IMG/VR virus record: IMGVR_UViG_3300023301_001182
Span: 28,164 to 92,163 of that record
Origin: a virus
DNA: 64,000 bases
Reading direction: 5' to 3' (one strand)
In this document: positions 1-55,067 of the stretch, piece by piece
How positions within the stretch are numbered: position 1 is the first letter of the stretch
Layout of the letters: each line of letters starts with the position of its first letter
Program-made: the position numbers and the translations under genes
Notes under the pieces: model-generated
Databases searched by the model: none
Seen by the model: the letters and a program-made list of their open reading frames with translations, nothing else
Told to the model about the DNA's origin: nothing

Positions 1-2856
1 ATGACACCTATTGATTATGATTTTATAAAAGATGATATATTACAATTGTTTCCAAGACAGGAAGAAAAGGATTTATTTCATTTTAATATTACAGAGGATA
101 TAAACTTAAAATATCAATTCTCTGCAGGTAAAGCTGGTGTAGGACAGACTGCTAATACTATGATGGATCATATAAGAGGTAGTATGGCAGATTTATCTTT
201 TCATAAGTACTATTTAGGTATTGGTGAATTTAGAATAAAAGATGGTATAAAAGAAACTATATTTGATACAAAAGAGACCTCTAAAGATATAAAAGAAAAA
301 GGCAATAATCAAAAAAGGATAAAAATAACTGATTCACTTTCTGCAATACTTAATGCATTTGTTGATATTGCAAAAGATCCTTATATTACTAGAGGAAATT
401 GGAATACTCAAACTGCTAATGTAGGATTTATGCTACTTAGAGCTGGTGTTCATCCTTTTCATGTAAATGCTTTATTAGGTCAACCTATTTTAAAGGAATA
501 TGTAGAATTTGTAACCAATTCAGAATCTAAAATTAATAATGATACTGGTAATTTATCTAAGAAATTCTTAAAAGAAAAATTTGGTGAAGAAAAACCATCT
601 TTAAAAATAGATCCTTTATTTGATATAGGTGATTTTACTTTAAAAGAATTAAGATCTCAAATTGCTAATACAGAAAGTGATGAATTTATTCAAAAAAATA
701 TATTTAAAACCTTTATTGAGTGGCAAAACCAATCTAAGAAAGTAGGAGAAAATAATAAAGCTTCTAAATTTGATGTAGAAGGGTATGGTAAAAATGTTAC
801 ATCTCTAATTGTATATAAAAACTTAATTAATAAATTACTAATTACTGGGGAATATGAAGCTGGTAATTTTAAAGGTTTTGCTAGTAAATTAAAAAAAGAT
901 GGTAAGAATACTTTCTTAGCACATTATAAGGAAGGTATCATTGATTTTATAGGGGATGTTATGGTAGCAAATCCAGGTACATTTTTAGTTGCACAACCTG
1001 ATATTATAGATACATTTAATGAAATATCTAAAGGTGTTACAGGGGATGTATTAACAAACGATGAATTAGCAACTAAATTGGAAACTGCATATTATTCATA
1101 CTTAATGTCTGGATTTAAGCCTTTTGATGTTACTAATGAAGATAAAGCTGTTTTACTAGAAAGTATTATTAAAGACTTATCTAATTATAAAAAGGGAAGT
1201 AAAAATATATTAATTCAAGAATTAGATATTAAATTAGCTGAACGAGTTGATGGTAAAGAAACTTTCTTTATTGGGATGAACAATAGAAAGAAATCTGTAA
1301 CTTATGAGACAGATTTAATTGCCGCTTGGTTAGATTTAATTGAAGATAATCCAAAATTAGCAGAGGATTTAATTAAATATTCATACATTACATCTGGATT
1401 TCAGATGAATATGAATCAATTTTATAATCTAATACCTTATCAATGGTTTGTTAGAAATGGTTTAAATGATCACATTAGAGCTCATGTAAGTAACTTAGAG
1501 GGCGTAGATACCATATTTATGAAAAACTTCTTTAAACATAGCTTAAAAGACGATCAGATAGTATCAAAGGTCTTCAACAGTATGAAAGATAGAAATTATA
1601 TTCGTGATGTATTCGGATTTGTTTTAAAGGATAAAGATAATGTTAAGAGTTATGTTAAACAAGACGTAGAGGTTAGTAAAGATATGCTTGGAGAACCAAT
1701 TTATAAAGCTAGATTATATGAATTAGTTGGATATACTAAGGATAATAAACCTGTATATATGGCTACATCTTCTAAAGGGAGTGTAGATAAAAAAGGTTTT
1801 AAAGTTTATGAATATTCACCTATTGAATCAGATAATAGTATCTTTAGTAAAAATAATGTAAAAGTACCTATAAAGAGACAAGATGAAATTAATAGATATA
1901 TAGCTCCTAAACAAGATATAGTTAATAGTAGTCCAGTGGCTAATGTAGAAATAGATATTGTGAATGATAATGATGTAGTAGTTGAGAAGGAAATAGAGGA
2001 TTTAATAGAACCTAAGACTTTAAAAGAATATGCAGATAAATATAATATTAGATTTTATCAAAATAGAGAAATTGTTACACAAGAAGATATTGATTATTAT
2101 GATGGTCAATTAAAAAGGTTACTGGATGGTGGCTCATTTAAATATGCAATGTTTGAATTTTTTGAAAATACTACAAATTTGAGAAATAAATCTTCTTTTA
2201 AACGTTACTATGATAAACTAATAGAAAAAGGATTTAAACCAGTAGAAGGGAAAGAATATATATTATCTAAAGGGGGTGTAAACCCTATAGATGAATTTAA
2301 TAAAGAATATAGAATAGGGAAAGTAAGTAATATAGTAGATACTTCTGAAATATATCAAAAAAGAAATATATTTACAGTAAAACCTATACAAGCAGTAGAT
2401 AAAAAAGCTATATCTAAAGCAAGTATAGCTACACAATATATAGGATTTGCTGAAGGAATTGAAGGTAGTTCTACAGCTTTATATGCTAAACAAGCAGGTG
2501 ATGTTGCTAATACAGGAGTTTATAACTTTAATGATGTAATATTTGTATCTGTAGGTGGAAAAAGAGGTACTGAAGTTATAAGACAAAAACAACAGGATAA
2601 GACTATTATAGAAGCTATTAAAGCATTAGAAAAGGGTGCTACTCTACTTACTGATAATAAAGAATATGTAGACAATAATCCTTATAATGAGGGAGAAAAG
2701 AAACTTAAATCTAAACTAGAAAGTGAAAGATATAACTATTCTGAAATTATAGTAGATGAAAATAAAATAGGAGTTTGGAATAAAGTAAATAATAAAAAAA
2801 TAAAACCAATAGATCCAAATCAACTGGATATATTTAATAACGAAGATAACTGTTAA
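1..2856 (+). CDS. Large virion-associated protein, probably 5'-truncated by the window
   Basis: The frame is open from base 1, so the 951 residues are probably the C-terminal part of a longer protein. No enzymatic motif is obvious in the first 800 residues, which are rich in Lys, Asn and Asp. The last 150 residues look like a separate compact domain (around 800-930: IGFAEG, SSTALY, ANTG, VFVSVGG, EKGATLLTD, YNEGE), reminiscent of Rossmann-like nucleotide-binding domains seen in phage proteins; this is inference. It is followed after 3 nt by another giant gene on the same strand. Its size and place at the end of the late module suggest a protein packaged in the virion, as in other crAss-like phages. 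Confidence 0.55.
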   Translation: MTPIDYDFIKDDILQLFPRQEEKDLFHFNITEDINLKYQFSAGKAGVGQTANTMMDHIRGSMADLSFHKYYLGIGEFRIKDGIKETIFDTKETSKDIKEKGNNQKRIKITDSLSAILNAFVDIAKDPYITRGNWNTQTANVGFMLLRAGVHPFHVNALLGQPILKEYVEFVTNSESKINNDTGNLSKKFLKEKFGEEKPSLKIDPLFDIGDFTLKELRSQIANTESDEFIQKNIFKTFIEWQNQSKKVGENNKASKFDVEGYGKNVTSLIVYKNLINKLLITGEYEAGNFKGFASKLKKDGKNTFLAHYKEGIIDFIGDVMVANPGTFLVAQPDIIDTFNEISKGVTGDVLTNDELATKLETAYYSYLMSGFKPFDVTNEDKAVLLESIIKDLSNYKKGSKNILIQELDIKLAERVDGKETFFIGMNNRKKSVTYETDLIAAWLDLIEDNPKLAEDLIKYSYITSGFQMNMNQFYNLIPYQWFVRNGLNDHIRAHVSNLEGVDTIFMKNFFKHSLKDDQIVSKVFNSMKDRNYIRDVFGFVLKDKDNVKSYVKQDVEVSKDMLGEPIYKARLYELVGYTKDNKPVYMATSSKGSVDKKGFKVYEYSPIESDNSIFSKNNVKVPIKRQDEINRYIAPKQDIVNSSPVANVEIDIVNDNDVVVEKEIEDLIEPKTLKEYADKYNIRFYQNREIVTQEDIDYYDGQLKRLLDGGSFKYAMFEFFENTTNLRNKSSFKRYYDKLIEKGFKPVEGKEYILSKGGVNPIDEFNKEYRIGKVSNIVDTSEIYQKRNIFTVKPIQAVDKKAISKASIATQYIGFAEGIEGSSTALYAKQAGDVANTGVYNFNDVIFVSVGGKRGTEVIRQKQQDKTIIEAIKALEKGATLLTDNKEYVDNNPYNEGEKKLKSKLESERYNYSEIIVDENKIGVWNKVNNKKIKPIDPNQLDIFNNEDNC

Positions 2857-2859
2857 AAA

Positions 2860-5800
2860 ATGGGATGTCCAATAAAAGTAAAATTAATCAACGACTTAAT
2901 AGATAAGGGAGCTATTAATAGTAAAGAAGAGGTTATTAATTTAGCCAAATTTAAAGATTTAAATGAATCATATACCAAATTAGCTAATGGAGAGTATGAT
3001 GTAAATACCTATGGTAAAGATTTATTTACTGTAGAAGATATATCTGTTAAAGGTAGGTCTATTACTAAAATTATCCCTAATACTACAGTTTTAGATTTAA
3101 TGACAGATGTTGTTGAAGATAGTAAAGTAGAAGAGACTGTTAATGAAGAAGTTATTATTGATAAAAAAAATATAACAGATTTACTTGATGAAAGTGCAGA
3201 TAACTTCTTATATACTGTAGAAGAATCAGTACAAACTGAAACCACTGATCCTAATATAAATAGTAAAATATTATTTGATAATCAAGATAGAACTTTTACA
3301 GCTAAAGAAGTGTTAGATAATATTAAACTAAATTATTCTGGATTGAATGAAGGTGTTATTGCTTTAATTGATAAATTATTACCAAAGTTATATACTACTA
3401 ATTCTAAGATTAAATTTGTATCAGAAGCAACATTATCTAACACTAATGATGTAATGGAGTATAATCCTATTACAAATGAAGTTTTAATATCAAAAGATAG
3501 ATTAGAAAAGTATAATACAGAAACTGTAATAGCTTCTTTTTTACACGAAGTAATTCATAGTACTGTTATTAAAGCCTATAAGAATCCTGTTACTATGGAA
3601 GAAAAGATGTTTAAATCTTTCATAGATGATATATTTGCAAAGTATAAGGATACTGCAGATTTCAAAGAACAAGGGTTTGATAATGAAATGGAATTCATGG
3701 CTAAGATAATGACTGATTCTGAGTTTCAAGATAAAATTAAGAACACTGAAAGTCTTTGGGATAGAATAGTAGATTATATTAGAACACTTATAGGGTTACC
3801 TAAAAATAGTGAATATAATAATATTATAGAGGAGATAACTAAAGTTATAGAAGAGAGTAATTATGTAGGTGGTATAAATGATATGTTATATCAAAGCAGA
3901 GCTGAACGTAATTATTATGATATATCATCTACAGAAAAAAGACAGAAGAAAGTATTAGATGGTATTAAAGATAATTTAGAAGAGAGTGTTAGAAGATATG
4001 ACAATCTTATTAAAAAATTAAAAGACCCAAGTAAATTATCTAAATATTCAGATAAATTAAAAGACATTTTTGATAATTTAGAAAATTTTGATGATACACA
4101 AGAATGGTTAGCAATTAGTACATTTGTTGGTCAATTAAGTAGAAATATTAATAATTTAAAAGAAAGTTTTAATAAAGTAGATATTACAGCAGATGATATA
4201 GAGAAAACTGTTAATTTATACGATAAATATTTAACATCACATTCTTTAATAGAAGAAATATCTGATTTTGTATCTAAAGCTAAAGCTGATGAACATTTTT
4301 CAATTAGTAGGGAAGATATAATAAAACTACAAAATGACCTATCTATTGCTAAAGGAGAATATGATGCTTTGAAAAAAGATATTCAAAGTATGAAAGAAAA
4401 ATTTGCAACAAATCTTTTAAATAATAGAAAATATGCTTCAGAAGTATTACATAAATGGGAAATTAAATTAGGTAAAAAATATAATACTTTAGGACTTAAA
4501 GAAAATAAAACTAATTGGGTAGGTAGACAAATGAATACTATCTATAAAGAAGAAATTGATGCAGATGTTAAAGAAAATGCTAATAAATTAGTTAATAATG
4601 TAGATTATGATATTACTAAGTTAACAGGATTATTTGTATCTGGGATTAGCACTAATTCCAAGTTAATTAAAATCATGCAAAATCTTGTAAATGAAGTTAG
4701 GGGAAATATTATTAAAACAATTAGAAATAAAGACTTTGAATTAAAACCTATCTTTGATAAATTTGTAAAAGCTAAAGGAAATAGTTCTCCATCTGTAATG
4801 AATAAAAATATTTTAGAATATGATAAAGATGGTACTGCTTATTTAAAAGGTGATTATAAATTAGAATTTAGAGAATTATATCAAACTAAATTAAAGGATT
4901 ATAATGCTGAAAAAATAGCAGTTGAATCTAAATTTGGAATTGCTTCCTCTGAGTATCAAAAATTATATATTGATTCTGAGTTTAAAAATTGGGTTGATAA
5001 TAATACTATTACTATATCAGATGAAATGGGTAATGAATATAAAAGACCTATTGATAAGTGGAAGAATGATTTATCAAAATTACCTATAGAAGATAGAGAG
5101 GTTATTGAGGCATTTAGAAAGATTTCACAAGATAGCAATAAGTCTACATTTAAAATACAATCTTTAATTAGTAAACCTTTATTTGGTGGTAGATACTATA
5201 GTTTACCTGTAGCTACTAAAACCGATTTAGAAAGAGTATTAGAGAAACAAGTTGTTGGTACTATAAAAGATAAATGGTATGATTTAACTAAGGTTAGACC
5301 TGATGATATAGGTTATGAAATTATTAATACAGATTTAGCTGGAAAACCTATTTATAATGTTAAAATACATTATAGGGGTAAGTTAGATCCGTCTCAACAA
5401 TCCTTAGATGTATTTACTTTATATAGGCTAGAAGCTAGAAATGGTATAAGCTTTGAAGAGAAGCACAATGCTGAAACTAATGTTAATATGTTAGTAGATA
5501 TTTCTAAACATAAAGAATACTATCGTAGTACTGGTACTAGAGTACCATTTTTAAATATAAATATTAATAGAAATAAAGAAGCTACTAAAAAAGGAGAAGA
5601 GTCTAATACATATAAAAGAATGATATCATTGATGGAATCAAATATTTATGATATATTATATAAAGATGCTGGAAAGACTGGTAAAATAGATAATAATAAA
5701 GCTGTTGCATTAGCTATAGGGTGGACAGCTAAAGTTGGTTTATGGATGGCTGGCGTAGCTGGTTCTGTTAATGTATTAAATGGTAAAGCTCAGTTATTTT

Positions 5801-7011
5801 TAGAAACTATTGCTGGTACAAGTATTACTAGAAGATCGTTAGGAGTAGCTGAGAAAAACTACTTTAAAGATATAAAAGCAAATATGCAAGATTTGACTAA
5901 CCCAATTAAAACATCTTTTACCAATCAAGTAAATGAAATGTTTGATACTTTTGGTACAATAAGTGTTAAAGTAGAGCAAGCATTTATAAGAAATACATTG
6001 GCCAAATCAGTATTAGATACACAATCTTTACAATTTGTACAAGAAAGTGGAGAACATTGGATGCAATCTACTTTAACTCAAGGTGTTTTAGAAGATATAA
6101 AAGTTATGGATAAAAATAATAACTTCTTAACTAAAACTGGAGAAATAACTACAGAGGAAAACGGAGCATCTATGTTGGATATGCTGTTTAAAAATCCTAT
6201 TACTGAGCAATTAGAATTAAACCCAAAAGTAGTTTATACCACTAGAAGCATTGGGGTGAAATATAATGAAGGCGGTAAAGAAATAGTTACTAGTCTTATA
6301 AAATTAAAGATATTACAAACAATGGGTAATTATGATAAAAATATGCAACCCGAGGCTATGCGGCATGCTCAATATAAAATGCTTATGACATTTAGAAGAT
6401 ACTTTGTAGAATTAGGGATAAATAGATTTAGAGGTTTTTCTCGTGTAGATATAGCAAGTAAAGATTTATTTGATGAAGAGAAATTTTATTCAGAAGAAGA
6501 ACAAGAGTATATAGAGGGAATGTATACTACAACTATACGATATATAATTCCAATTATAAAATCTTTAAATTATAAATTAGTCTCTACAAATTGGAAAGAA
6601 TTATCAGATTATGAAAAAAGTAATATTCATAAAACTATTGTAGAAGTAGCTATAACTAGTGCTGTATTACCAGCTATTGGTGCATTATTAGCAGCTTTAA
6701 AAGGAGATGATGATGATGAACGTATTTGGTTTTTAATGTTAATTAATAGAAGATTACAATCTGAATTATCTTCTTTTAGGAGTTTAAGTGAACAATATAA
6801 AATACTTGAATCCCCTATACCATCTATGAGGATGTTAGAAAATGCTACTAGGGTGATAGGTGATATAGCACAACCTTTGAATTGGAATGAAAGGGATAGT
6901 AAAGATAGATTAAAAATTATAAAAGATTTTAAGAAAATAACTCCAATCATAAATTCTACTAATTCTACATATAAACAAAAATATCAATATTTAATATATA
7001 TGACAAATTAA
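2860..7011 (+). CDS. Giant virion protein with HExxH metalloprotease motif
   Basis: The 1383-residue protein starts 4 nt after the previous stop. Residues 229-233 read HEVIH, a zincin-type zinc-binding motif, with a candidate third ligand in NEMEFMAKIM some 45 residues later. The middle (350-600) is helical and probably coiled coil. Residues near 955-985 (WTAKVGLWMAGVAGSVNVL) and 1255-1275 (ITSAVLPAIGALLAAL) are hydrophobic and could be membrane-active. Large proteins with protease and membrane-active segments next to tail genes are typical of ejected or cargo proteins of short-tailed phages. The role is inferred; the zinc motif is directly visible. Confidence 0.6.
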   Translation: MGCPIKVKLINDLIDKGAINSKEEVINLAKFKDLNESYTKLANGEYDVNTYGKDLFTVEDISVKGRSITKIIPNTTVLDLMTDVVEDSKVEETVNEEVIIDKKNITDLLDESADNFLYTVEESVQTETTDPNINSKILFDNQDRTFTAKEVLDNIKLNYSGLNEGVIALIDKLLPKLYTTNSKIKFVSEATLSNTNDVMEYNPITNEVLISKDRLEKYNTETVIASFLHEVIHSTVIKAYKNPVTMEEKMFKSFIDDIFAKYKDTADFKEQGFDNEMEFMAKIMTDSEFQDKIKNTESLWDRIVDYIRTLIGLPKNSEYNNIIEEITKVIEESNYVGGINDMLYQSRAERNYYDISSTEKRQKKVLDGIKDNLEESVRRYDNLIKKLKDPSKLSKYSDKLKDIFDNLENFDDTQEWLAISTFVGQLSRNINNLKESFNKVDITADDIEKTVNLYDKYLTSHSLIEEISDFVSKAKADEHFSISREDIIKLQNDLSIAKGEYDALKKDIQSMKEKFATNLLNNRKYASEVLHKWEIKLGKKYNTLGLKENKTNWVGRQMNTIYKEEIDADVKENANKLVNNVDYDITKLTGLFVSGISTNSKLIKIMQNLVNEVRGNIIKTIRNKDFELKPIFDKFVKAKGNSSPSVMNKNILEYDKDGTAYLKGDYKLEFRELYQTKLKDYNAEKIAVESKFGIASSEYQKLYIDSEFKNWVDNNTITISDEMGNEYKRPIDKWKNDLSKLPIEDREVIEAFRKISQDSNKSTFKIQSLISKPLFGGRYYSLPVATKTDLERVLEKQVVGTIKDKWYDLTKVRPDDIGYEIINTDLAGKPIYNVKIHYRGKLDPSQQSLDVFTLYRLEARNGISFEEKHNAETNVNMLVDISKHKEYYRSTGTRVPFLNININRNKEATKKGEESNTYKRMISLMESNIYDILYKDAGKTGKIDNNKAVALAIGWTAKVGLWMAGVAGSVNVLNGKAQLFLETIAGTSITRRSLGVAEKNYFKDIKANMQDLTNPIKTSFTNQVNEMFDTFGTISVKVEQAFIRNTLAKSVLDTQSLQFVQESGEHWMQSTLTQGVLEDIKVMDKNNNFLTKTGEITTEENGASMLDMLFKNPITEQLELNPKVVYTTRSIGVKYNEGGKEIVTSLIKLKILQTMGNYDKNMQPEAMRHAQYKMLMTFRRYFVELGINRFRGFSRVDIASKDLFDEEKFYSEEEQEYIEGMYTTTIRYIIPIIKSLNYKLVSTNWKELSDYEKSNIHKTIVEVAITSAVLPAIGALLAALKGDDDDERIWFLMLINRRLQSELSSFRSLSEQYKILESPIPSMRMLENATRVIGDIAQPLNWNERDSKDRLKIIKDFKKITPIINSTNSTYKQKYQYLIYMTN

Positions 7012-18269: not shown

Positions 18270-18991
18270 ATTATTTTATTTGATTCTCCTCCTAACTGCT
18301 CTAAAATATCATTAGCCTCTTTAGTAAATGAAGCGTCAAATTTTCTTTTATTTGCTATAGATTCAGCAGGGTGTTCAGCACATACTATATGATTATTTCC
18401 TGTAATATAAGGTTTAAAAGCCTGTGCTTCATCACCTAATAGAATAAATACAGTATTTTGATGCCATGAACAAATTGTTTTAATTACCTCTCTAGTAAAG
18501 TTTTTCCAATATAACTTATGTTGCATTGGTTCTTTTGCTAAACTAGAAGTTAAAGCAACATCCATAAAGAATACGCCTTGGTTAATAATATCTTTAAATG
18601 TAGGATCTTGATGCATTTTAAATCCATCATACTCACTTTTCTCAATACCTTTAATAAAAGCTATTAATTCTTGTGAGAAAACATGACCATACGCATCGTT
18701 ATTACCTAATGGTATACCCATACTTCTAAAATTTGTGTAAGGTTCTCTACATAGTATTACAGTTTTAATAGTTGCAAAACTAGTGTCTTTAAAACATTTA
18801 AAAATATCTTCTTTTTTGGGATACATATTCCCTCCTTTATACTTTTCATGAAGAAATAACATAAGATTTTCCATATATGGAGTATCGAGCAGACTATCTT
18901 TCAATACGTCTGCCCAATCTTGTTCCATAAGTTTGTCATGATCTATGTTTAAATCATAGTCAATGTTAACTATACTCATTATCCTCTCCAT
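18263..18991 (-). CDS. ung: Uracil-DNA glycosylase-like protein with altered active site
   Basis: 242 residues (or 238 from the second Met). The protein follows family 1 UDG from end to end: VILCREPYTNF (79-88) in place of GQDPYH, GVFFMDVALTSS (139-150) in place of the LLLNxxLT uracil-binding strand, the helix YWKNFTREVIKTI, VFILLGDEAQ, and CAEHPAES with catalytic His207. The catalytic Asp is replaced by Glu83 and the uracil-reading Asn by Asp144, while the Tyr that excludes thymine is kept (Tyr85). This suggests either changed specificity or loss of activity. It overlaps the amidoligase gene by 13 nt. Confidence 0.8.
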   Translation of the reverse strand: MERIMSIVNIDYDLNIDHDKLMEQDWADVLKDSLLDTPYMENLMLFLHEKYKGGNMYPKKEDIFKCFKDTSFATIKTVILCREPYTNFRSMGIPLGNNDAYGHVFSQELIAFIKGIEKSEYDGFKMHQDPTFKDIINQGVFFMDVALTSSLAKEPMQHKLYWKNFTREVIKTICSWHQNTVFILLGDEAQAFKPYITGNNHIVCAEHPAESIANKRKFDASFTKEANDILEQLGGESNKIIW

Positions 18992-20724
18992 ATAACTTGA
19001 CCAGGTGCTACAACCTCAGGCATAGGTGCAACATCCTCATCTATCATACCTCTAATTTGAGCAGCCATACCACGCCCACCATCAATAAAATTAGGATTAA
19101 AATCTCCACCAATTCTTTCATCGAACCCATAGTTAACTATATAATCCTTATCATTACCACGTTTACTAACACGAGTTTTAGATAATTCTATATCATCATC
19201 TGTAGCTTTACTCCAAACAATACGTTTTCTATTTTTAAAATTATCCTCATCCCCATTAATAATACCTTGTCTTGCATCACCATAAAAATGATCTTTTCTA
19301 TATCTAAGATACTCATAAAGATATCCAGCATAGATATTTATGTCATTATTTCCATATTTAGTATATCCAGCCATTTTATAACCTATATCTGAAATACTTA
19401 AACCGTTTAAGATTTCAGGTTTTTCAAGAATAGCTTTTTCATTCTCTATTACAAAATTTATAATAGATGCACATAGCATTAGGTAATACATAATTTTTTC
19501 ATGGTCATATGTTGGAGTATGTAATCTAAACTCCACGGTCTGCTTATTTCCAAATAATAATGGAATAAGATTAACCCAATGATAACGACTTCTAATATTC
19601 CATTTACTGTTCCCACGAGGGTCAGATGGATGATATTCTACATTACTTAAATCATATCCTACATTTTTATACTTTTGGCCCATTGATAAATAACTATAAA
19701 GTATACTAAAATTATCTTTTAATTTACTTTTAGTAATTACTTTATCAAATTGAAACATTGTCTCATTAAAAGGATAAGGTCTAGTATAATGTTTTCTTTT
19801 CACACCATAATTAAATTGTTTATATAGTGGGAAAATTTCATACATTTGGTTTTCAAGTGTACACAATGTTTTAAACAATGCTAACATAAAACCTTCAGTT
19901 CTAGGAACATTACCTATATGATAATGAATAGAACAAGACTTATCATATGTAGTATACTTTTTTAATGCGTCTACACTATTAATAAGAGTTTGTAATCCTT
20001 TTTCTCCTTGTAAAGGTATGGTTGCATATTCTAACCCGCCTATACTACCATCTCTTAAAGCTATCATACCTACTTCATTAGTCAACGATTGAGGTACTTG
20101 CCCTTTAATGGTTTCAAATTCTACACCAAATGTTAAATCTCCTAATAACTTACCATATTTTGAAACATTAGAACTAATAGTTGGTTTATAAACATCTTGA
20201 TGATATTTAATTAAACTACTCATTTGTCCTCTTGAATCATATGGTAAACCATTTTTAATATTACTATTAACTTGCCCTGGGTTTATAAATTCCTCAACAC
20301 GATGTTTTAATCTATGAGCATAAGCATTAAAACGAAGATTCATTAAATATCCTCCACCTTTTATTACTTCATTACTTACACATGCATATTGGTCTCCTTC
20401 TGGTGTAACTAATTTTGGTAAATCAATACCAGCTTCATTACTAAAGAAACCTTTAATTAGTTTATCACCATGTAAACCTACAACTCCTTCAATAAGGTTA
20501 GTAGCATTCTTAATAACATACTGTTTTAAAGTATGATCAAATATTATATAACCAGTATTACTTTTATAATACTTTTCGTTAATAATATAACATTGTCCTG
20601 AGTCTTCTATTGAAATATCGCCAATTTTATAAAAAATGCCGTTAATTCTTCTGCAATCAGACCGTTTTTCAGTAGTATCATTTATTGTTACTACCATTTC
20701 ATTGTCTTTTATGAGTTGTGCCAT
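18979..20724 (-). CDS. Amidoligase family enzyme
   Basis: 581 residues. The C-terminal two thirds fit the glutamine-synthetase-like amidoligase family: LTFGVEFETIKG (197-208), ALRDGSIGGLEYATIPL, SCSIHYHIGNVPRTEG and KQTVEFRLHTPTYDHEKI, the acidic and His residues that bind Mg-ATP. These enzymes make amide or isopeptide bonds. It is the first of a contiguous set with a class II glutamine amidotransferase, a COOH-NH2 ligase, a C26-type hydrolase, an ATP-grasp enzyme and a gamma-glutamylcyclotransferase. The product could be a peptide tag on proteins or a wall-derived metabolite; neither can be told from sequence. Confidence 0.82.
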   Translation of the reverse strand: MAQLIKDNEMVVTINDTTEKRSDCRRINGIFYKIGDISIEDSGQCYIINEKYYKSNTGYIIFDHTLKQYVIKNATNLIEGVVGLHGDKLIKGFFSNEAGIDLPKLVTPEGDQYACVSNEVIKGGGYLMNLRFNAYAHRLKHRVEEFINPGQVNSNIKNGLPYDSRGQMSSLIKYHQDVYKPTISSNVSKYGKLLGDLTFGVEFETIKGQVPQSLTNEVGMIALRDGSIGGLEYATIPLQGEKGLQTLINSVDALKKYTTYDKSCSIHYHIGNVPRTEGFMLALFKTLCTLENQMYEIFPLYKQFNYGVKRKHYTRPYPFNETMFQFDKVITKSKLKDNFSILYSYLSMGQKYKNVGYDLSNVEYHPSDPRGNSKWNIRSRYHWVNLIPLLFGNKQTVEFRLHTPTYDHEKIMYYLMLCASIINFVIENEKAILEKPEILNGLSISDIGYKMAGYTKYGNNDINIYAGYLYEYLRYRKDHFYGDARQGIINGDEDNFKNRKRIVWSKATDDDIELSKTRVSKRGNDKDYIVNYGFDERIGGDFNPNFIDGGRGMAAQIRGMIDEDVAPMPEVVAPGQVIWRG

Positions 20725-20726
20725 AA

Positions 20727-22742
20727 TTATTCTTTTAATTCTATTGCAATTAATACTGTAGCGTCTTTTACTAATTTATTCAAAATAGCAGAAGCTATAT
20801 TTGCTCTACTATTTTTATATTTTTCTAACCTTTTCATATAGGCTGGAAACTTTTGCAAGGCATCCTTAAACATATCATTAATATCATCATCAAGCTCATC
20901 TTCACTAGAAGTATCTAGTGCAATAACTTTGGTTTCTTTTTTTATGATATTATTTTCAAGTTCCTCTAAATTACCAACTATTAAATTTAGTTTTGTTTGA
21001 TCAACCTTACCAGATTCAATAATCTTTTTAGTATCCTTCTCACAGTTAATTCTACTATCTCTAATAACTGATCTACTAATACAATTACCTGCCTCTACTA
21101 CATATACTTTTTCTGAGCCTAATGGGCAGAATGTATCTGTAACTAGATTACCATTATACATAATCTCTTGACTTGCATGATTTTTAAACATAGAAGTAAG
21201 GTCAACAATAGGATGAGCAGCACAATATGATAATTGTTCTGCCGTAAGTTCTTGTAAATTCTTTTCACCCATAGACGTACAAGCAGTATAATCAGATTTG
21301 CTTCTTAACCTAATACCATTATGAAAATAATGAAAAGGCATAATAGTTATTGGATGTTCATCATTACTAATAAACGGATAAAATGCAGCATCTCTATCTT
21401 TAAATTGTATATCTTCTATACTAGAAAATTCATACTTAAAGAATAACTGATTAGTTATTGTTTTAAATTTACGTTTAGCTTCTTTTTCATCAAACCCTAA
21501 AAAGTAAAACCCAAAGCCTTCTACAAATGTAAAAATACCATTTATTTTATGACCATTTCTCCAATAACGTAACATATTCATATAGATACGATTACCATAG
21601 AAATTAAGTTTCTCAGCAGGTGTTTCTGTATAAATATTATTATTTATCTGTATTTGTAACAAATTAGTGTTAGTTGCAGCATTATGAGCATTATTAACTT
21701 CAGCATCTCTTTTATCTTTCTTGTCTTTTCTCATCTGCCAAGTTTCAATTGGTAGTTGACAAGTTGATGCATCATTGTCATCATTAGGATTATAATCATT
21801 CATTTCAAACCTACTATTATGTCTTGCATAATCATTATGAACAACTGTTTTGGTCATAGCTGGACCAGTTTGAAAACTAGTAGCTCTACTAATTTTAGTT
21901 CTTTTAGCATTTTTTACATCACCATCAGTAATTTCATAAATTACATTAGGTGCAAATGACCAAGAATTCTTAGTAGTTGCACCAATACCTAGTAAGCTAG
22001 AGAAAATTGATGAAATATATACACTATTTTTAGATTCTTGATAGAAATACAAAGGTCTTTCTATTTCCACGTCAGAATCTTTCCAATCACGTTTTCTTGA
22101 TTCACCATGAAAACAATACATTACATTAGGTTTATCTGTATCTGTCCACACTAAAGCAGCAGCACCAGTATATTCACTTAAAACTTTATAATTTTTAGTT
22201 TTAGAAATAATCTCTAAAATTATTTCACTATCAATTTTAGTTCTAGTTAATGGAAATCTACTAGCTGATTCTCCATTAGGAGCTTCTGTATCAATTCCAT
22301 ATTGTTTTGCTAATGGGGTATGATTTAACAAGGTTCCATTATGTACTCCAATCATCTTATACCCTCCACCTCTACTAGTACCATATCCAAAAGGATGGGC
22401 ATTAGCTATTGTATGAGCTCCGTAGGTACTTTGTCTAGTATGTCCAAGTACTAAAGGGTATAGTTTTGGATTATCATAACTAGAATTTGCTAAGAAATTT
22501 CTAAATAATTTTTGTTCATCAATTCCAATTGATATTTCTCCATCTTTACTGATACCACAAGAATGTACTCCTCTGGTCTCATTATGTATTCCTAATATAT
22601 TTAACTTATTTCTATTAAATTTCTTTGGGTCTTTCCCAGCCCATCCAAAAATTCCACATGTTAATGTGTCTAATTTAGGTTTAAAAATTAATATACTTAA
22701 TGTATGGATAATTAATAAACCTAATATTATATTTACTATCAT
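20727..22742 (-). CDS. Class II glutamine amidotransferase (Ntn hydrolase)
   Basis: CGIFGWAG (residues 29-36) is the nucleophile region of class II amidotransferases (GFAT, PurF and AsnB type), followed by GHTRQSTYG and HPFGYG and, later, IGVHNGTLLNH. The catalytic Cys should be residue 1 after removal of Met, but here a 28-residue hydrophobic leader precedes it. The leader comes right after an inserted HNH gene, and an orphan ATG-TGT (Met-Cys) lies at 23325-23330 on the other side. Joining that to 22655 would give MCGIFGW in frame. The C-terminal 400 residues are unfamiliar and probably hold the acceptor domain. See findings. Confidence 0.8.
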   Translation of the reverse strand: MIVNIILGLLIIHTLSILIFKPKLDTLTCGIFGWAGKDPKKFNRNKLNILGIHNETRGVHSCGISKDGEISIGIDEQKLFRNFLANSSYDNPKLYPLVLGHTRQSTYGAHTIANAHPFGYGTSRGGGYKMIGVHNGTLLNHTPLAKQYGIDTEAPNGESASRFPLTRTKIDSEIILEIISKTKNYKVLSEYTGAAALVWTDTDKPNVMYCFHGESRKRDWKDSDVEIERPLYFYQESKNSVYISSIFSSLLGIGATTKNSWSFAPNVIYEITDGDVKNAKRTKISRATSFQTGPAMTKTVVHNDYARHNSRFEMNDYNPNDDNDASTCQLPIETWQMRKDKKDKRDAEVNNAHNAATNTNLLQIQINNNIYTETPAEKLNFYGNRIYMNMLRYWRNGHKINGIFTFVEGFGFYFLGFDEKEAKRKFKTITNQLFFKYEFSSIEDIQFKDRDAAFYPFISNDEHPITIMPFHYFHNGIRLRSKSDYTACTSMGEKNLQELTAEQLSYCAAHPIVDLTSMFKNHASQEIMYNGNLVTDTFCPLGSEKVYVVEAGNCISRSVIRDSRINCEKDTKKIIESGKVDQTKLNLIVGNLEELENNIIKKETKVIALDTSSEDELDDDINDMFKDALQKFPAYMKRLEKYKNSRANIASAILNKLVKDATVLIAIELKE

Positions 22743-43855: not shown

Positions 43856-43906
43856 AATGTAAAAAGGGGAGTCGAACCCCTATTACTGTTACTCATACTT
43901 TACATT
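43856..43906 (-). ncRNA. T-arm minihelix resembling a tRNA/tmRNA 3' end
   Basis: AGGGG-TTCGACT-CCCCT is a perfect T-arm, with the same loop as the tmRNA just upstream. The ends AATGTAAA / TTTACATT pair, giving an acceptor-like stem, but only 16 nt lie between them and the T-arm, so D and anticodon arms are missing. It follows the tmRNA by 24 nt. Confidence 0.45.
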
Positions 43907-43930
43907 ACTCGTTTAGAGTATTGTTATTTG

Positions 43931-44309
43931 TGGACCTGCGCGGAGTCGAACCGCGGTATCCCAACATATTTCATAATAATTCTTATACAGCTTCACGTTT
44001 GTTTAAATTCTTTACGCTAGAGTAGGAACGATTGGATTACAATCGAATCTCCACCACTTGGTTTTTGTAGAACCTAGAAACTAGTGTTGCCTTTGTTTTT
44101 ATTGCTTAGGCTGCAAATGCTAACTCAACAGTTAACTCATCAGAACCTTGTTCTGCAGTTACTGTATTATTAAGTATAGAATGAACCACACTCATGTTAG
44201 CGACGATTTGATCTGTGTTGTTTCCATTTAAGAAAATTCACCTTAGTTTACAGTTATCTCTCTGGCTGTTCATTATTAATCTACATATCAAGGCATTCCA
44301 GTCAAGCCC
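43931..44309 (-). ncRNA. ssrA: Transfer-messenger RNA (tmRNA)
   Basis: The 5' end GGGCTTG pairs fully (two wobbles) with CAGGTCC at the 3' end, forming the acceptor stem. The 3' end has the tmRNA-type T-arm CGCGG-TTCGACT-CCGCG, then the acceptor strand and an A; CCA is not encoded. After the 5' acceptor comes CTGGAAT, like the CTGGATTCGAC of tmRNAs, and TAATAAT pairs with ATTATTA near the 3' end as P2. Between lie a resume-type GTCGCTAAC, an open frame ending in LAFAA and a stop inside a TTGC/GCAA stem, then pseudoknot-capable segments. Length 379 nt is typical. A phage tmRNA would rescue stalled ribosomes or tag proteins during infection. Confidence 0.82.
44106..44201 (-). other. tmRNA tag reading frame
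   Basis: If translation resumes at GCT (44201), the tag is 31 residues, begins ANMSVVHSILNNTV and ends ELTVELAFAA. The Ala-Phe-Ala-Ala end resembles the ALAA-type degrons read by ClpXP. It is longer than the roughly 10-residue tags usual in Bacteroidota, so a later resume codon, such as GCA at residue 16 (AEQGSDEL...), is also possible. Confidence 0.65.
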
Positions 44310-46773: not shown

Positions 46774-46861
46774 TTAGGCTTTTATTTACTCTTCCTAAAG
46801 ACGTATAACTGTTATTTTATAAGTAAGTTTATTTGTTCTAATATGTTTCGTCTTAGCCTAA
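46774..46861 (-). ncRNA. Structured intergenic RNA, nested helices
   Basis: Minus strand TTAGGCT...AGCCTAA (7 bp) encloses AAGACG...CGTCTT (6 bp). It is in a gene-free stretch of 555 nt between the 46326 and 47235 genes. No family recognised. Confidence 0.4.
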
Positions 46862-46949
46862 TCATAGGTTATATGTTTATAGTCTTCTAAGATGACTTAA
46901 TTGTAATAGCTATAGTATTAATTGATTAGTTAGTTTTAAAGGGAAATAT

Positions 46950-53612: not shown

Positions 53613-55067
53613 ATGGATTCGAGCAAAGAAATTAAACTAGGAAATGATGTTAGGGATAAACTAATGTTGGGTATTAATAAGTTAGCATCAGTAGTATTAA
53701 CTACAATGGGGCCATCTGGTAGTACTGTTATTATAGCAGATGAATATGGTGATCCATATATAACTAAAGACGGTGTATCTGTTTCTAACTATATTAAACT
53801 AGAAGACCCAGTAGAGAATATTGCTGCTACTTTATTAAAACAGGTAGCACAAAATACAGTTGAACAGGCAGGAGATGGTACAACTACCTCTATTTGTCTA
53901 GCACAGTCACTAATTACTGAAGGGTATAAATTATTAGGTAAGGGAGAATCTTATAATGATTTAAAGGTTGAGTTAGAGAAATTAGAAGAGTACACAGTTA
54001 ATAATCTTGCCTGTGCTTCTAAAGAATTAAAGAATAAAAATATAGTTGACGTAGCTACTATCTCATCTAATAATGATGGAGTTATTGGTGATATTATTCA
54101 GAAAGCATATAATCATTCTACCATAGTTAAAGTTCAAGAAGGTAATAGTAATCTAGATGAATTAACTCTTATAAATGGTATGGAATTAGATACTAGTTAT
54201 ATTGATAATGCCTTTATAAATAAACCTCATCAACAAGCTGTAGAGCATACAGAACCCTTGGTAATGCTAGTAGATGGGAAATTAGAGTCATTGGATAACA
54301 TTAAAAGAGTAATATTAGAAGTTAAGAGTAGGCCTATAGTTATTATAGCAGATCATTTTGGAGAACAAGTTCTTAAATTATTAAAAGAGAATTATAATAA
54401 AGGAGCTTTAAATGTTGTATTAGTTAAGTCTCCAGGATTTGCTAATCATAGAAAGAATCTAATGGATGATATAGCTGATTACACAGGAGCCACTGTACTT
54501 AATCCATCTACAACATATACTAATATAAATGTATTAGGTACACTAGATAGTATTTATATTACAAAGCATACGTGCACATTATTAAACGAAGGTAATTTAT
54601 TAGCATCTAATGAAAAGTTAGCAAACTTAAAATCAACATTAGCTATATCTACAGATAGTAATGATATAGTATTATTACAACAACGTATAACTAATCTTAC
54701 AGGTAAGGTTGCAATCATTAGAGTTGGTGGTAATTCTGAAGTGGAGATGAAAGAACGTAAGGATAGAATAGAAGATGCAGTATTAGCTGTCCAGTGTGGA
54801 TTAGAAGAAGGAATTATTGAAGGGGGAGGAGTTGCACTATATAAGATAGCAAATACCTCAAAGAATAAATTTAAAGATTGTCTTCGTGATCCATTATATA
54901 CAATACTAGAGAATGGTGCAGTTATAGATTTTGAAACGTCAATGTTTAAACAGAATATTATTGATCCATTAAAGGTTACTAGATGTGCATTACAAAATGC
55001 TATATCAGTATCTAAAACTATACTTAGTACTAAAGCTATTGTATTAAATGAAAGATTATGGAAGTAA
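53613..55067 (+). CDS. groL: GroEL-like chaperonin
   Basis: 484 residues. Equatorial and ATP motifs are present: TTMGPSG (30-36), TKDGVSVS (51-58), GDGTTTS (87-93, same place as in E. coli GroEL), and KERKDRIEDAVLAVQCGLEEGIIEGGGVAL with the catalytic Asp. NITNLTGKVAII-like segment (ITNLTGKVAIIRVGG) is also canonical. The apical part is diverged, and the C-terminal equatorial part is about 50 residues shorter than in bacteria, without a GGM tail. It probably folds capsid or other head proteins. A GroES-like gene lies upstream. Confidence 0.9.
   Translation: MDSSKEIKLGNDVRDKLMLGINKLASVVLTTMGPSGSTVIIADEYGDPYITKDGVSVSNYIKLEDPVENIAATLLKQVAQNTVEQAGDGTTTSICLAQSLITEGYKLLGKGESYNDLKVELEKLEEYTVNNLACASKELKNKNIVDVATISSNNDGVIGDIIQKAYNHSTIVKVQEGNSNLDELTLINGMELDTSYIDNAFINKPHQQAVEHTEPLVMLVDGKLESLDNIKRVILEVKSRPIVIIADHFGEQVLKLLKENYNKGALNVVLVKSPGFANHRKNLMDDIADYTGATVLNPSTTYTNINVLGTLDSIYITKHTCTLLNEGNLLASNEKLANLKSTLAISTDSNDIVLLQQRITNLTGKVAIIRVGGNSEVEMKERKDRIEDAVLAVQCGLEEGIIEGGGVALYKIANTSKNKFKDCLRDPLYTILENGAVIDFETSMFKQNIIDPLKVTRCALQNAISVSKTILSTKAIVLNERLWK

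Follow-up and report, generated by a model that had tools for sequence, protein, structure and literature searches.

tmRNA frees ribosomes that have stalled and attaches a tag to the incomplete protein. To our knowledge, Mycoplasma and Mesoplasma hosts do not possess ClpXP. The ssrA tag of these bacteria is long and, in the form in which the work is cited in PMC8138137, goes along with a switch to the Lon protease (Gur and Sauer, 2008); Mycoplasma tags end in AFA rather than ALAA (PMC3985003). By analogy, such a Lon-read tag of unusual length and sequence is the best functional precedent for the phage gene described here. Phage-borne ssrA genes have been found in the mycobacteriophages Bxz1, Cali and Wildcat, in Bacillus phage G and in the OM43 phage Melnitz, where a supporting role in translation or protein turnover during infection is assumed, and these sources describe no conserved long tag module for any of the tmRNAs (PMC4131195, PMC9004378). 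The tmRNA of the Melnitz type consists of two pieces and has its relatives among those of alphaproteobacteria, whereas the gene reported here is one-piece. In total, tmRNA was identified in 402 of 18,146 phage genomes, a share of 2.3% being given for isolate phages (PMC9004378), and a tmRNA database from 2025 holds 79 unique phage sequences, the commonest tag length being 10 aa (PMC11915505). One tmRNA gene was also reported for Cellulophaga phage Calle (PMC8776804, MT732432), of whose tag we found no published analysis.

The closest cellular counterparts are the tmRNAs of Bacteroidota hosts, with which the phage gene has in common the one-piece organization, a GGN resume codon following TTTAAAC and a tag ending in a hydrophobic residue and two alanines. 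The two differ in the tag, which comprises 9 aa of the GENNYALAA type in the hosts, as retrieved by a pattern that presupposes such tags and thus shows their type rather than their frequency, but 24-49 aa with a QxxANMxxVxxLL insert in the phages. In addition, the hosts have a longer PK1 region, while that of the phages is rebuilt.

The gene lies in a virus record of 92,163 bases, of which a stretch of 64 kb (the window) was analysed. The contig represents a crAss-like phage related to Cellulophaga phage phi14:2 (Crassvirales, Steigviridae). The major capsid proteins of these two share 60% identity, compared to 46-48% between that of the contig and those of gut crAss-like phages; the contig also encodes PHROG portal 6547, terminase 6681 and head protein 11589. 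A tmRNA gene (ssrA) of 379 nt, including the discriminator A, occupies positions 43931-44309 on the minus strand, on which all elements of the gene given below are located. By cmscan, the Rfam model RF00023 matched over its full length (model positions 1-374) with 51.5 bits against a gathering threshold of 47 (E 2.3e-17), ARAGORN independently called the same gene, and no other Rfam family reached its gathering threshold in the 64-kb window. The acceptor is formed by GGGCTTG (44303-44309), which holds the G3 of the G3:U70 alanine identity pair, and CAGGTCC followed by the discriminator A (43931-43938), with all seven pairs in place; the gene thus runs from G1 to the discriminator, and CCA is absent from its encoded 3' end. 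The adjoining T arm (CGCGG-TTCGACT-CCGCG, 43939-43955) carries the tmRNA-type loop on a stem of 5 bp. There is no anticodon arm, helix H2 is long, and the tag frame has a resume codon, a stop and small or hydrophobic residues at its end. The first-pass annotation had placed the gene at exactly this span, had named the same acceptor pairing and T-loop, and had suggested a covariance search with RF00023 and a comparison with related phages, both of which bore out its assignment. In this gene, the stop is surrounded by the sequence of a candidate TTGC/GCAA stem. A permuted, two-piece tmRNA was ruled out, as both acceptor strands lie at the ends of one continuous gene. Judged by these sequence features, 43931-44309 is almost certainly a tmRNA.

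Constraint on the RNA became evident from a set of 75 distinct complete genes, including the one at 43931-44309. Acceptor (7/7 pairs) and T stem (5/5 pairs, with compensatory changes) were intact throughout this set, which was compiled by a script demanding near-full pairing of both; the G:U at 3-70 and the discriminator A, neither of which had been selected for, likewise occurred in 75/75. In a consensus fold of both gene ends, 2449 of 2545 cells were paired, and two-sided changes were numerous in the acceptor, the T stem and H2, whose strands (44265-44293 and 43961-43991) covary with each other. At the place of PK1, a hairpin (44251-44264) with a CAG/CTG stem and the near-invariant loop AGAGATAA was found; in relatives its stem covaries, appearing as CAG/CTG, GTG/CAC, GAG/CTC, CGG/CCG, CTG/CAG, GGG/CCC or TAG/CTA. 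No consistent second stem was found at this place across the relatives' hairpins, and, by eye, the loop showed no consistent pairing to downstream sequence of the kind expected for a standard PK1 pseudoknot. Between hairpin and resume codon lies the conserved block AAACTAAGGTGAA (44237-44249). The predicted fold of 44170-44309 was no better than that of shuffles (z 1.3), so that single-sequence folding was uninformative and comparison was used instead. The gene is a member of the tmRNA family in which the PK1 region and the tag differ from known forms, and as a simpler hairpin takes the place of PK1 in the hosts, selection of the resume site could differ from the standard.

The pattern AGAGATAACTGN{1,8}AAACTAAGGTGAA recovered at least 119 stretches, distributed over more than 100 viral contigs, and gave no match in 84,980 bacterial and archaeal species, each represented by one genome; a further pattern, which combined the strict block with a hairpin of the GAG/CTC type, had no matches. 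The 5' half of the tmRNA was also detected by blastn in the Cellulophaga phages phi14:2, phi38:1, phi40:1 and Calle, and 29 Flavobacterium psychrophilum phage records contained it as well. Only in Calle is the gene annotated, while it is unannotated in phi14:2, phi38:1, phi40:1 and the Flavobacterium FpV4-type phages; the Calle tmRNA belongs to the same lineage and has a tag of 30 aa, GNNTNAVNAQIEANMEAVNAILNLEVAVGV. In the reference genome of Akihdevirus balticus (phi14:2), hypothetical ORFs that are likely spurious overlap the unannotated tmRNA at 2471-2940. The crAss-like portal phrog_6547 was present in 28 of 29 records carrying the RNA pattern, which argues against a spread over unrelated phage families and indicates that, among the records sampled, only crAss-like phages in the wide sense have this lineage. 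When contigs were chosen by capsid similarity alone, 11 of 32, many of them fragments, contained a full-length tmRNA. The expectation that few phages carry tmRNA hence holds in general (PMC9004378, PMC11915505) but not within the crAss-like group. From the sequences sampled, these genes constitute a phage-only tmRNA lineage that is large and little-described.

Several other elements were noted around the gene and in related phages. Just downstream, at 43860-43915 (-), a second T-arm-like hairpin (AGGGG-TTCGACT-CCCCT) precedes a TTTTACA that is complementary to TGTAAAG located 16 nt upstream of the arm; neither ARAGORN nor Rfam called a tRNA here, and the element is a candidate tRNA remnant or minimal tRNA-like element. 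No tRNA gene was called in the window, while three of the related contigs (L093, L187 and L116) have 20, 7 and 9 tRNAs, respectively, clustered near the tmRNA. A RAGATH-1 hammerhead ribozyme match at 46818-46898 (-) was sub-threshold (27.4 bits against a gathering threshold of 56.3, E 0.2) and is probably due to chance. A GroEL/Cpn60-like chaperonin gene (53613-55067, +) adjoins the terminase and portal genes, and adjacent genes for an amidoligase and a glutamine amidotransferase (18979-22742, -) perhaps form a pair for peptide or surface modification. Two very large proteins of 951 and 1383 aa, encoded at 1-7011 (+), had no Pfam or PHROG match and could, by analogy to the large proteins of crAss-like phages, represent a divergent virion RNA polymerase.

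The tag frame of the gene extends from GGA to TAA (44106-44225) and encodes 39 aa, GNNTDQIVANMSVVHSILNNTVTAEQGSDELTVELAFAA. For comparison, 122 copies were available, corresponding to 82 distinct ORFs and 79 peptides. In all 122, the frame is open between a GGC, GGA or GAC that directly follows the conserved block and the terminating TAA or TAG. In-frame stops occurred in none of the 82 distinct ORFs, while the other two frames contained stops in 54 and 25 of them. The distance from this GGN/GAC to the ANM motif falls into nine length classes (5, 6, 8, 9, 10, 12, 13, 14 and 17 codons), all of them whole codons; as a control, the spacer from the PK1-place hairpin to GGN measures 10-13 nt and does not vary in threes. 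It is at gene positions 85-90 that other tmRNAs resume. The GGA occupies gene position 85, the GGN/GAC codons of the relatives lie at 85-90, and in several relatives (L090, L102, L126, L127, L139, L162, L173 and L182) ARAGORN itself picks a GGA, GGC or GAC within this range. Taken together, the open and conserved frame, the whole-codon lengths, the position and the GGN context of the hosts indicate a tag of 39 aa, which on these sequence comparisons very probably starts at GGA 85. Tags in the lineage measure 24-45 aa with a median of 35, and the complete gene of L116 specifies a tag of 49 aa without ANM. For phi14:2, the GGN start predicts that the tagged C-terminal peptide begins with GNDTDNTQLKANM.

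Other start sites have been proposed further downstream. The first-pass annotation took GTCGCTAAC as resume-like and assumed a tag of 31 residues from GCT 109, and ARAGORN gave a tag of 16 aa, AEQGSDELTVELAFAA, from GCA 154, which is too short by the evidence of frame and length. Resume codons are commonly GCN, conservation within the tag is highest at ANM, and in some relatives ARAGORN chooses starts at ANM or later. However, the frame remains open and conserved for 8 codons upstream of GCT 109 and is stop-free in 82/82 ORFs with its nine whole-codon length classes, the Q at -3 is invariant with synonymous CAA and CAG codons and is followed by V or I at -2, and the GGN/GAC codons are found in the host context TTAAAC-GGN at the position used by other tmRNAs. 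In addition, the copies differ by up to 37 nt in how far GCT lies from the hairpin, and by 3 nt in the spacing between conserved block and GGN. A start at either GCT 109 or GCA 154 is accordingly highly improbable, and ARAGORN misses or mis-calls tags in the crAss-like tmRNA lineage. The tag proposed initially was indeed unusually long, and with the GGA start it is even longer than assumed.

Within the tag, the stretch QIVANMSVVHSIL (44172-44210) forms a conserved module with the consensus Q-[VI]-x-A-N-M-x-x-V-x-x-[LI]-[LI]. Over 69 distinct modules, which were located through their GCN-AAY-ATG codons, dN/dS from Q(-3) to +10 around ANM was 0.23, and 0.33 when these locating codons were left out. 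Codon position 3 was the most variable and position 2 the least, and the near-invariant Q, A, N, M and V include residues encoded by synonymous codons (CAA or CAG for Q, four for A, both for N and three for V). This substitution pattern marks the tag frame as protein-coding and under purifying selection, which means that the tag itself, beyond the release of ribosomes, matters to these phages. A search with the tag pattern only retrieved further tmRNAs with diverged hairpins, indicating that conservation of the peptide reaches further than that of the RNA hairpin. The relatives found by capsid similarity have the same kind of tag: it could be read in 10 of the 11 (L329 was left out), and (A/S)NM was present in 9 of these 10. 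The module is not universal, as L327, one of these relatives, has a tag of 29 aa without NM, and L116 lacks ANM. Both the acceptor pairing and the tag frame are conserved in related phages. It is conceivable that the ATG of ANM also starts a free micropeptide (MSVVHSILNN...AFAA), and the codon is present in 69/69 modules. This count arises partly by construction from the motif used to locate them, though, M has a single codon and its invariance is nothing special, and the preceding Q, A and N are equally conserved with synonymous changes, so that we regard such a second product as very unlikely.

AlphaFold predicted a helix for residues 3-24 with a pLDDT of about 81 and a poorly defined remainder; overall confidence of the tag model was moderate (mean pLDDT 68, pTM 0.37), and the model carries no information on a binding partner. 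V/I(-2), M(+2), V(+5) and L/I(+9) are spaced 4-3-4, which suggests an amphipathic arrangement. As 18 tags gave no match in Pfam and the tag none in the PDB, it does not represent a known domain. A role of the helix as a docking element is tentatively proposed; the module could also serve something other than protein routing.

At its C-terminus, the tag ends in AFAA followed by the TAA stop (44106-44120). The third-last residue is V, M, L, I, A, E, F or Y in the lineage, whereas 76 of 82 distinct ORFs retain -AA at their end. The weight originally given to FAA in place of LAA is therefore not justified, and the C-terminus resembles a usual degron end of the ssrA type. A degradative fate of the tagged proteins appears rather likely. 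In their C-terminus, the phage tags do not correspond to the long Mycoplasma-type tags directed to Lon, which lack the final -AA, and the ANM module is new in comparison to these. No SmpB gene was found in the source contig or in 29 other phage records, and neither ClpP nor Lon was detected above the cut-off in the phages searched, with a single sub-threshold ClpP-like match (in G039), which implies that host factors are needed.

We therefore favour, with a probability of roughly 0.8, a working tmRNA of a phage-specific lineage that combines ribosome rescue with a host-type degron end and a helix for a second recognition. After infection, host AlaRS would charge the phage tmRNA with alanine and host SmpB would bind it, upon which it would enter ribosomes stalled on broken mRNAs and supplement ribosome rescue. 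Translation would resume at GGA, so that rescued chains would end in A-GNNTDQIVANMSVVHSILNNTVTAEQGSDELTVELAFAA, and with their hydrophobic-A-A end these chains would still reach a ClpXP-type AAA+ protease of the host. A short amphipathic helix, formed by the inserted QxxANMxxVxxLL, would provide a second recognition step through an adaptor, a different protease or a phage partner. As a result, the phage would exert its own control over rescued proteins while ribosomes are kept free.

The shared G-x-N-N start and hydrophobic-A-A end of host and phage tags make a common ancestry with Bacteroidota tmRNA likely, and would also fit a host tmRNA that the phage has taken up and that drifts there as an unused gene. 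This is extremely unlikely, as acceptor, T arm, G3:U70 and discriminator are intact in 75/75 genes, the RNA covaries, dN/dS is 0.23 across diverse contigs, and the RNA pattern is absent from the 84,980 bacterial and archaeal genomes. More plausible, though still doubtful, is that the gene chiefly serves as a reserve for cases in which host defences or nucleases disable the host tmRNA, the tag sequence being secondary. With the rebuilt PK1 region, the loop AGAGATAA and the block AAACTAAGGTGAA, the RNA is unlike that of the host and would evade a nuclease directed at the host molecule; however, no nuclease of this sort was identified, and the selection on the tag peptide is left unexplained. A somewhat lower likelihood is attributed to a long tag that stabilizes or recruits, its helix binding a phage or host protein and thereby protecting or relocating tagged proteins. 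The conserved helix with its 4-3-4 hydrophobics is in line with such a function, as is the lack of a Pfam or PDB match and thus of a known degron adaptor motif, but -AA in 76/82 points to proteolysis. Within the favoured reading of a working phage tmRNA, a two-part tag is possible but somewhat short of an even chance; in it, a host-type degron end would be joined to a conserved helical module for docking, through which rescued polypeptides are passed on to a specific partner from the host or the phage.

The openly accessible literature yielded no description of the lineage, its tag module or any analysis of phage tags, and none on limits to tag length. As far as could be found, no conserved tag module had been reported for phages before, and with more than 75 distinct complete phage genes, compared to 79 phage sequences in the 2025 database, an isolated curiosity becomes a lineage. 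It has cultured members, the Cellulophaga phages phi14:2, phi38:1 and Calle, and is thus testable. With tags of 24-49 aa as opposed to 9 in the hosts, these phages may alter the fate of rescued proteins, and if the two-part tag holds true, this would represent a viral reprogramming of the output of ribosome rescue by crAss-like phages of Bacteroidota.
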